DNA from: Chaetoceros tenuissimus
Taxonomy: Eukaryota > Bacillariophyta > Thalassiosirophyceae > Chaetocerotales > Chaetocerotaceae
Direction: 5' to 3'
NCBI GenBank assembly: GCA_021927905.1
Contig: BLLK01000013.1
Location: 1-64,000, forward strand
Length of the DNA: 64,000 bases
Shown here: in pieces, positions 57,409 to 60,848 of the stretch
Position numbering within the stretch: position 1 is the stretch's first letter
Layout: every line of letters starts with the position of its first letter
Notes under the pieces: model-generated
Databases searched by the model: none
Told to the model about the DNA's origin: nothing
The model's input: only the letters and a program-made list of their open reading frames with translations
Made by a program: the position numbers and the translations under genes

Positions 57409-58582
57409 ATGTCACTTCTCAACGCATCTAGACATCTCTCGTCAGTATCCACACCTCACTTTCGCAAACTTCTTGTAGTCATCAAGCAAACTGCCTATGA
57501 AGAATATTCGCAACTTCGACTAAGAGGGAAAGCACCAAAGGCGTTGAGGTGGCAGCGTCTCGAAAACCGTTACAAATCGCATAAAGCATGTGTAAACGAT
57601 CTTTTGGGAATTTTGAGACATCACAATGTTGAATTTCAATGTGTGAATCGGGTTGAACTCGATAGGCAACATTTGAGAAATGTTGACCTTGTCGTGGCAG
57701 TTGGAGGCGATGGCACTGTTCTTAGCTCCGCTCATTTCCTAGATGCTGGAACGATTCCTCTTTTAGGAGTGGTAAGTTTGTTCTTTTTTGAGAATTCTTT
57801 TTGCTTGAAAGTATCTAACCAATTATGTTCAACACATGTCATAGAATTCGGATCCAATTCAGGATAGTGATCGTGATACAAGGAAAAATACAGATGAGAG
57901 AAGAAGTCATGGGGCATTATGTGTATGTACTGCAGATGATATGAGTGAAAGATTAGCGAAAGTATTACATGGTGGGGGAAAGATCCAAGAGAGAACAAGA
58001 ACCCAATGTATTGTAAAGTCTACCTTTTCAGAAACAAAATTAGTCCCAGGATTGAATGATATGCTTATTTCAAACCCAAGTCCAGCTGCTGTTTCGCGTT
58101 TTAGAATGGGATTTATGGAACCTATAGATTTAAGTGATCGTGCTCATTTGAAAGATGGGGGCAGCAGTGTGGATGAAAGAGAAACTTTGAGTTACAAGAA
58201 GTATGGGACAGTAACGCGTTTCAACAATATTGCATATGACATTAGAGACAGTATCAACATTTGGAGTTCAGGTATGTGGATATCGACTGCAACAGGTTCA
58301 ACTGCAGCAATAAAGGCTGCTGGAGGACAGCCAATGGATTTGGATTCATCAGATTTGCAATATTTGATTCGTGAACATATCCACGAACATGGTACTGAGG
58401 TTTCTCCAGAAATTGATAATGGTTTTGTACGAAATAATGAGCAACTTCATCTACGATGGAATAGTCAAAGTGGAACCATATTTATTGATGGCTCACACCT
58501 CACACACGATCTACACTTGGGAGATGAAATTTTGATCAACTCAAATGCACCCCCACTTCAATTGTTTGTGAACGATGAGTAA
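57409..58582 (+). CDS. NAD kinase (NADK2/NADK3-like)
   Basis: It phosphorylates NAD(H) to NADP(H). Two exons, 57409-57771 and 57845-58582, joined in phase 0 by a 73-nt intron, give 366 aa. The nucleotide-binding motif GGDGT is at 99-103. The intron splits GV-NSDP, so LLGVNSDP is formed only by splicing. ATGSTAAIKAAGG further on is the second ATP-grasp-like motif. The long insert and the last 50 residues match the eukaryotic NADK2/plant NADH kinase branch rather than the bacterial type. The N-terminal MSLLNASRHLSSVS is basic and Ser-rich, so mitochondrial targeting is likely. Confidence 0.9.
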
Positions 58583-58659: not shown

Positions 58660-59400
58660 TTATTCCTCAGCTGGAAGATCTTCTGCCTCGTTTCCTGGTA
58701 GACCCTTCCCAGTCAAGAGGCAAGTTGCTACATGCATTAAGAAACCAGGAGGTCCAATAAGATTACAAAAAAGCACAGAGTGTGCTGTGAAAATGCCTCG
58801 TTTCAAACCATCCAACCAAACAATTCTTCCAACAAATAGATCCCAAGTCAAAACGTGCGACCATTCTTCAGATACAAAGTTTGGATACTTCATCATCCCC
58901 ATCATTGCTTTTTGTGGATCACCAGAAGGATCAAAGACATCATTAAATTCTACCAATGGAGCAGTTCCATTTTCTTGACTTGCCGAAACAATAACGATGA
59001 ATAGATGTACCAGAGAAAAGGCAATGATTGGAATATAGCTCCCCATGATCTTTTTGGTAATTTCATTTTTTGGCAAAAGAATCATAAATAACCAGAGAAT
59101 CTGTGGTCCAAAAGTTGCAACATTGAATGCTGTTTTGATTTCTTCATTTGATAATATTGATGTAGTAATGGAAGAAGATGCTACAAGAGAATTGATGGAG
59201 TCTAGATCTACTACTAGATTCAAAGCAGATTTTGAATGTGTGCTACTTAGATCTTTTGTTGCCAATGATGATACTGCTGGAAATTTTCTCACTACGGATG
59301 ATGGAGTGCTCATTGAATTTGGAGCAAAAGCCTGAACACTGACATTCGCCAGAGAAAGGTAAGCTAGAGCTGCATAAGTCTTCATTGAGATTTTCACCAT
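58660..59400 (-). CDS. ABA4-like plastid membrane protein
   Basis: A 246-aa single-exon protein. It begins with a signal peptide ending SVQA-FAPNS (residues 21-29), a clear ASAFAP-type motif for a diatom plastid protein. The mature part has four hydrophobic segments and the block EEWSHVLTWDLFVGRIVWLDG, with LIGPPGFLMH, which match the ABA4-like family (DUF4281). In plants ABA4 is needed for neoxanthin formation from violaxanthin in the plastid membrane. A carotenoid or photoprotection role in this alga follows by analogy; the family also has members of other function. Start could be Met 1 or Met 6; both keep the signal. Confidence 0.8.
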   Translation of the reverse strand: MVKISMKTYAALAYLSLANVSVQAFAPNSMSTPSSVVRKFPAVSSLATKDLSSTHSKSALNLVVDLDSINSLVASSSITTSILSNEEIKTAFNVATFGPQILWLFMILLPKNEITKKIMGSYIPIIAFSLVHLFIVIVSASQENGTAPLVEFNDVFDPSGDPQKAMMGMMKYPNFVSEEWSHVLTWDLFVGRIVWLDGLKRGIFTAHSVLFCNLIGPPGFLMHVATCLLTGKGLPGNEAEDLPAEE

Positions 59401-59551: not shown

Positions 59552-59678
59552 TCAGTCATTGGTCTTCGTCTAGCAGCCACCCATTATTTTCAATCGAGCG
59601 ACACTTGTAAGTACAATTTCCTCATTTCAATTCTAATATACCTAATCCTACTATTCCTTTCAAGTGTAATAAGCTAGG

Positions 59679-60848
59679 TTGAAAATGAAACTCACAAGTA
59701 TTCTATTCCTATCTACAATTGCATGTGTGGAAAGTTTTGTTGTCCATCGTTCGGGCACTCGAGACTTTATGCTTCCCATGGCAAAAGGAAATAATCGACA
59801 GCAGCAAAGAGGTTTCCAACAATATGGAGAAGAAATAAATCAAACATATTGCGCCCTGTCCAGAGATAGAATTATTCAAATGATTCGAGAGAGGTCACAA
59901 GCCAGAAGGCGACGCGACTTTGAGACTGCTGATCAGATTTTGAAAACACTCCAGATCAATCGCGTATTCATTGACGATAAGAAAAAACTATGGAGAGCTG
60001 ATGGAGAAGATTTCGACAGGCATGGATACAAAAACGCAGAATATACAAAGTCTTCCAGCTCAAGGCCAATATCTCCTCGAGAGGAAGAATACGTCAATCA
60101 GAAGCTGAAGGAGAGAAGTAATGCGAAGCTAATGAAAAACTACGATCTGGCTGATGATATCTTGGATGAGCTTCGATTTCTAAAGAATGTAGTTGTTGAT
60201 GATACAAAAAATACATGGAGTGTGACTGAACCATTTAAAGCTGAGTATTCATATGGTGGTAGAAGGTTGAACAATATCCCAGATGAAGAAATCCAAAAGA
60301 TTGAAAGATTGATAAGGGAGAGAGCAACTGCAAAGACAAACAAAGATTACAAGATTGCAGATGAAATTTTGGAGGAATTGAAAGTCGTGTATGGGGTAAG
60401 AGTTGACGATTCAAGAAAATCATGGTTCTTTCTGCCAAAATTTGATGACGAGAATGAACAATTCTCTGATAGAAGTAGGAGAAGTGATGGACAGGAGAAC
60501 GAGACATCAAGAAGAACAAAACAAGCAAGGAAACGCACATCTGATTGGTCTGAAGTTGACAAGCAAGAAGCTACTGCTCCTGATGGGATCACTCTTGAGT
60601 CAGAGCATTCTACTATGCCAGATGGAATCACAATAAGTGAAGAACCTGTCATGCCTGAAGGCATTAGTATCAGTGATGAATCGATAAGCATCCCAGAAGG
60701 TATCAGTATTGGGAATGACGAATCTGCTCTAAATACAGCAGAGTTAGAAAGTTTGACAGTGCCGCAACTGAAAGAAAAGCTCCGCGCTGCGGGCAAGCCA
60801 GTGTCTGGAAGAAAGGCTGAACTCATAGATAGATTAAAAAGTACATAG
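59679..60848 (+). CDS. plastid protein with three CysRS-tail-like repeats and a SAP domain
   Basis: A 389-aa single-exon protein. The signal peptide (LTSILFLSTIACVES) ends at CVES-FVVHR, an ASAF-like plastid motif. Three repeats of about 48 residues, 62-107, 134-181 and 202-250, follow the pattern I-x3-I-R-E-R-x2-A-x4-DY-x2-AD-x-I-L-x2-L-x5-V-x-V-DD-x3-x-W. This resembles the C-terminal anticodon-binding (DALR-type) tail of cysteinyl-tRNA synthetase (ERxxAxxxKDxxxADxIxxEL). Residues 305-350 are four short repeats (P[DE]GI[TS][IL]). The last 35 residues are a SAP domain (LTVPQLKEKLRAAGKPVSGRK), usually DNA- or RNA-binding. No synthetase catalytic part exists. A nucleic-acid role in the plastid is inferred. 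Confidence 0.8.
   Translation: MKMKLTSILFLSTIACVESFVVHRSGTRDFMLPMAKGNNRQQQRGFQQYGEEINQTYCALSRDRIIQMIRERSQARRRRDFETADQILKTLQINRVFIDDKKKLWRADGEDFDRHGYKNAEYTKSSSSRPISPREEEYVNQKLKERSNAKLMKNYDLADDILDELRFLKNVVVDDTKNTWSVTEPFKAEYSYGGRRLNNIPDEEIQKIERLIRERATAKTNKDYKIADEILEELKVVYGVRVDDSRKSWFFLPKFDDENEQFSDRSRRSDGQENETSRRTKQARKRTSDWSEVDKQEATAPDGITLESEHSTMPDGITISEEPVMPEGISISDESISIPEGISIGNDESALNTAELESLTVPQLKEKLRAAGKPVSGRKAELIDRLKST

Follow-up and report, generated by a model that had tools for sequence, protein, structure and literature searches.

The window, that is, the whole 64,000-nucleotide stretch of diatom DNA analyzed here, encodes a 387-residue protein in which three tandem copies of a module homologous to the C-terminal tail of cysteinyl-tRNA synthetase (CysRS) are joined to a SAP domain, with no synthetase body attached. 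Judged from sequence, the homology of the repeats to the CysRS tail is firm. With regard to function we favor, with confidence that is about evenly balanced, a plastid RNA-binding protein in which each CysRS-tail module would grip an unpaired guanine; here we infer RNA binding, location, guanine preference and the role of the SAP domain alike.

The gene was recovered as a single open frame when its protein was compared with its own genome by tblastn. The first-pass annotation had placed the open reading frame at 59679-60848; its frame and end stand but its start does not, because the codon at 59679 is TTG and the first in-frame start codon (ATG 59685) lies two codons further on; an in-frame TAA lies at 59670-59672, upstream of that ATG. 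As shown in Table 1, the protein consists, in order, of a signal-peptide-like start followed by F18, the three CysRS-tail repeats, a charged linker, the P[DE]GI units and the C-terminal SAP domain. The four PDGI-type repeats and the SAP domain described previously were both confirmed: the P[DE]GI units begin at P299, P312, P324 and P337 (spacings of 13, 12 and 13 residues), and the Pfam SAP profile matched at 6e-12 (45.3 bits against a cut-off of 23.9).

Table 1. Features of the repeat-protein gene (window coordinates) and its paralogues elsewhere in the genome
Feature	Position	Strand	Basis or description
Whole coding sequence, 387 aa, one open frame (protein P0001)	59685..60848	+	ORF reading; tblastn
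Signal-peptide-like start, residues 1-17, then F18	59685..59735	+	sequence by eye
Gln/Arg-rich basic stretch, residues 18-55, possible transit-peptide-like region	59736..59849	+	net charge +2
CysRS-tail repeat 1, residues 56-106	59850..60002	+	18.2 bits, CysRS-tail model
Repeat 1, putative guanine-pocket residues	R70, R74, F79, D83	+	E. coli CysRS contacts, PMC12684709
CysRS-tail repeat 2, residues 130-180	60072..60224	+	20.2 bits, CysRS-tail model
Repeat 2, putative guanine-pocket residues	R144, K148, Y153, D157	+	E. coli CysRS contacts, PMC12684709
CysRS-tail repeat 3, residues 198-248	60276..60428	+	29.4 bits; best Pfam CysS_C stretch
Repeat 3, putative guanine-pocket residues	R213, K217, Y222, D226	+	E. 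coli CysRS contacts, PMC12684709
Acidic linker, four P[DE]GI units	60570..60719	+	net charge -13, residues 295-350
SAP domain, residues 351-385	60735..60839	+	Pfam SAP 6e-12
Paralogue L015	C34		723 residues: six repeats, RGG-rich region, SAP
Paralogue L016	C33		664 residues: six repeats and SAP
Paralogue L018:1096-2346	G000:C16:2706095-2707342	+	416 residues: RRM and two repeats
Paralogue L017:1424-3118	C34	+	564 residues: one repeat

Consistent with the earlier description of three CysRS-tail-like repeats, Pfam assigned CysS_C to the 387-residue protein (1.6e-6, 28.5 bits against a cut-off of 23) and to paralogues (31.7, 42.4 and 23 bits), and the NCBIfam CysRS model PRK14536 matched three stretches of the protein (E = 6.9e-16), the full-length NCBIfam CysRS models aligning through their final ~45 positions only. 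When the repeats were compared with one another by Smith-Waterman alignment, z scores of 12.1, 13.3 and 16.2 were obtained, and 0 of 5000 shuffles was as good. When eight CysRS tails from outside the diatoms were made into a model, it scored the repeats at 18.2, 20.2 and 29.4 bits, against at most 7.8 bits in 5000 shuffled versions of the 387-residue protein, and it picked up every repeat of the family, a degenerate one weakly. Further, a PDB search with a profile that combined 18 repeats with the tail of the plastid-type CysRS, 19 tails in all from the same genome, returned five CysRS chains (1.9e-11 to 3e-6) and no non-CysRS match below E = 1.8. Because this profile contains one true CysRS tail, the three repeats of the 387-residue protein were searched alone as a control, and the best match was a CysRS (3tqo, 2.5e-5).

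The absence of a synthetase body held as well: Pfam found neither the class I catalytic domain (tRNA-synt_1e) nor the DALR domain in the 387-residue protein, and it detected both in the plastid-type CysRS of the same genome. The bacterial matches to the repeats are the C-termini of full-length CysRS, and comparison with these by eye indicated that the repeats run beyond the hairpin into a terminal strand and Trp, like CysRS. A first scan of genome contigs returned nothing, and the four loci obtained in a second scan each proved to be the C-terminus of an ordinary bacterial CysRS (one checked with Pfam). Phage and plasmid records yielded no relatives; in viral contigs the repeat queries had no match, and only the SAP domain gave matches.

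The structure-prediction check proposed with the first-pass annotation gave a divided result. AlphaFold2, run on the three aligned repeats of the 387-residue protein alone, confidently predicted a helix-helix-beta hairpin (mean pLDDT 89.9), but neither Foldseek nor VIA-align found a significant relative of this model, CysRS not being listed. The missing match may reflect the small size of the module; disorder of the tail in unbound CysRS, together with a library holding one chain per sequence, could possibly hide a match too. Folding the whole protein from its single sequence gave a poor model (pLDDT 41), which was left out of the analysis.

The role of the CysRS tail is to read the tRNA anticodon, and the contact invoked in the first-pass annotation is documented (PMC12684709). 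In the E. coli CysRS-tRNA complex, R427 and D436 hydrogen-bond G34, W432 stacks on G34, and R423 and D436 belong to a water network (PMC12684709). Across the 18 repeats of the window protein and its four paralogues, aligned by eye, the R423 column is R throughout (18/18), the R427 column is R or K in 16, the W432 column is F or Y in place of W in 17, and the D436 column is D in 17; all three repeats of the 387-residue protein keep R, R/K, F/Y and D at the CysRS spacing. By conservation these columns rank 2, 14, 6 and 8 of 49, the other top-ranked columns being mostly hydrophobic core, the terminal Trp and an Asp, and elsewhere the repeats have diverged to roughly 20-40% identity. In the degenerate repeat 5 of L016, three of the four pocket residues are gone together, replaced by K, M and Q, as would be expected if the residues form one site. 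The retention of G34-contact residues strengthens the RNA-binding idea, and the conserved columns and their joint loss in this repeat underlie the proposal of a guanine grip. The pocket residues could alternatively be kept for folding, and R423 and D436 may have structural roles.

A search of the genome (41 Mb, 68 contigs) found four paralogues (Table 1). The triple layout of the first-pass annotation is correct for the window protein but is one of several, repeat number in the family being three in the window protein, six in both L015 and L016, two in L018 and one in L017. Repeat 1 of the window protein is closest to repeat 2 of L015 and L016, with which it has in common a one-residue-shorter loop and a WRAD ending, and its repeat 3 is closest to repeat 6 of L016. 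These repeat-to-repeat likenesses suggest that the three SAP proteins derive from a common multi-repeat ancestor. The genome also contains three CysRS loci, separate from the repeat family; in other diatoms, three CysRS are predicted for the cytosol, mitochondrion and plastid (PMC4494062). In the Pfam test for the tail, the C27 enzyme, whose start is of SAF type, is alone in exceeding the cut-off; the remaining two end differently.

Among the paralogues, L018 provides a second, clearly RNA-linked architecture for the CysRS-tail module, behind a plastid-type start. L017 gives a weak C2H2-like match, and on visual inspection its C-terminal part resembles a 2OG-Fe(II) oxygenase (HxD...H...R), a likeness backed by no Pfam or PDB match. 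Many repeats have a tyrosine-containing linker (GYTKS, GYVKS, EYTK, MYTLS or similar) ahead of helix 1; it recurs before most repeats of the window protein, L015 and L016, and may mean that the duplicated unit extends beyond the CysRS tail.

Judged from its N-terminus, the window protein is probably plastid-targeted. A plastid-type start in diatoms consists of a signal peptide whose cleavage site is marked by an aromatic residue, usually F, followed by a transit-like region. In the window protein, inspected by eye, F18 follows the signal-peptide-like stretch (CVES/FVVHR), and the corresponding sites are LVEA/FAP in L015, RVVA/FSP in L016 and LVSA/FVK in L018. Plastid-type starts are thus present in four of the five family members, L017 having none, and by eye those of L015, L016 and L018 fit the diatom plastid presequence pattern better than that of the window protein. 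ASAFAP-type presequences, together with the gene content, also point to a diatom as the source of the genome.

The SAP domain is C-terminal in the window protein and in both six-repeat paralogues. Because this genome also puts SAP on unrelated proteins, the domain alone argues weakly for DNA binding, more weakly than the first-pass annotation implied. A SAP domain also ends L029, an ankyrin-repeat protein, L028, which is of secreted or ER type, and L026, which is acidic; in L030, which is hydrolase-like and has a plastid-type start, it lies close to the N-terminus. All these types were assigned by eye.

In the mechanism we propose, a nucleus-encoded protein would have arisen when the C-terminal domain with which a bacterial or plastid-type CysRS reads the anticodon was duplicated in tandem. 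Each module of two helices and a beta hairpin would form a pocket like that for G34 in CysRS, in which two basic residues and the Asp would bind guanine and the aromatic residue would stack on it. Three modules on short flexible linkers would provide avidity for RNA with several exposed guanines, candidate targets being anticodon loops that contain G34 and single-stranded mRNA or precursor RNA. The SAP domain, which the acidic P[DE]GI linker would set apart from the modules, may tether the protein to nucleic acid or to a partner. The model is supported by related proteins that join the module to an RRM or an RGG-rich region. Against it, repeats 2 and 3 carry no net positive charge (-3 and 0), the tail in CysRS acts jointly with the synthetase body, and the SAP domains of this genome sit on proteins without evident nucleic-acid function. 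More speculatively, and in our view doubtful at present, the family could be a lineage-specific modular RNA-binding system of complex plastids in which each repeat recognizes a single guanine and the RNA target depends on how many repeats there are and how they are spaced; it would then be the diatom equivalent of PPR and OPR proteins, derived from a tRNA synthetase tail.

The same pocket could serve tRNA rather than mRNA: the modules would hold plastid tRNAs by anticodon loops that contain G34, so as to store, protect, process or modify them. Its residues are indeed those that read G34 of tRNA-Cys, but there is no synthetase body to position the remainder of the tRNA, three copies on flexible linkers would better suit multivalent binding to one RNA, and several genes with three to six modules are many for tRNA alone; we therefore regard a dedicated tRNA binder as rather unlikely. 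The plastid-type starts and the shared C-terminal SAP domain of the window protein and the six-repeat paralogues would also fit a plastid nucleoid protein, with SAP on DNA and the tail modules structural or bound to single-stranded DNA. This we hold to be distinctly improbable, since SAP also occurs here on ankyrin-repeat, secreted/ER-type and hydrolase-like proteins and the tail reads RNA in its parent enzyme.

A loss of RNA binding altogether would leave the modules as protein-protein scaffolds, for instance for the plastid CysRS or translation proteins. Small helical hairpins often turn into scaffolds, and acidic and P[DE]GI linkers would suggest partners; yet few polar positions in the repeat are better conserved than the RNA-contacting residues, and we give this reading little credence. 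Derivation from something other than CysRS, by convergence on a helical hairpin such as the UVR-type motif, has in its favor a superficial resemblance to 'DFxxAAxLRDxI' and the lack of a significant CysRS match in Foldseek. A UVR-type motif was rejected because Pfam gave CysS_C and not UVR; with CysRS the sole outcome of the PDB profile search and the repeats reaching the terminal strand and Trp, convergence is close to negligible.

Compared with the C-terminal anticodon-binding domain of CysRS (CysS_C, PF23493; E. coli residues 403-461, PDB 1u0b), the repeats are the same ~45-residue module, with the same spacing of R, R/K, aromatic residue and D at the G34 contacts and a terminal aromatic residue in common (Trp in 15/18 repeats). 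Unlike CysRS, the SAP proteins have three to six tandem copies with linkers and an added SAP domain, lack the catalytic and DALR domains and carry Y or F in place of W432. WHEP domains of animal aminoacyl-tRNA synthetases are likewise a small helical, synthetase-associated module found in tandem. Three are present in EPRS, and they bind RNA or protein outside charging; they remain attached to a synthetase, however, and are not known to be related in sequence to the CysRS tail. pTAC3 resembles the window protein as a plastid-directed protein with a SAP domain, but we know of no CysRS-tail modules in plastid SAP proteins such as pTAC3. PPR and OPR proteins are also nucleus-encoded tandem helical repeats for organelle RNA, but they form continuous alpha-solenoids of ~35-38 residues per repeat (PMC13126933, PMC4029402), whereas the CysRS-tail repeats are separate beta-hairpin mini-domains 64-107 residues apart.

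The literature searched contained no description of synthetase-free tandem CysRS tails combined with SAP, RGG or RRM parts, and such proteins may already stand unremarked in public diatom annotations. The novelty thus lies in this arrangement, the domain itself being known, and three to six CysRS tails without the enzyme suggest an undescribed kind of modular RNA-binding repeat. If the modules bind RNA via the guanine pocket, an anticodon reader would have become a stand-alone, multipliable repeat that can be combined with RRM, RGG and SAP parts. Plastid RNA control in algae with complex plastids is largely unexplored, and diatoms have been named as a case to study (PMC13126933). The RNA-binding claim is directly testable, since each predicted contact residue is known individually.

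Two further genes were noted beside that of the repeat protein. An ABA4-like protein with an AFAP-type presequence (Pfam PF14108, 1.2e-33) is encoded at window positions 58660-59400 on the minus strand, divergent from the repeat-protein gene at 59685. A NAD kinase-like gene lies at 57409-58582 on the plus strand (Pfam NAD_kinase 5e-9 on the first ORF), with an intron apparently separating its two open frames.
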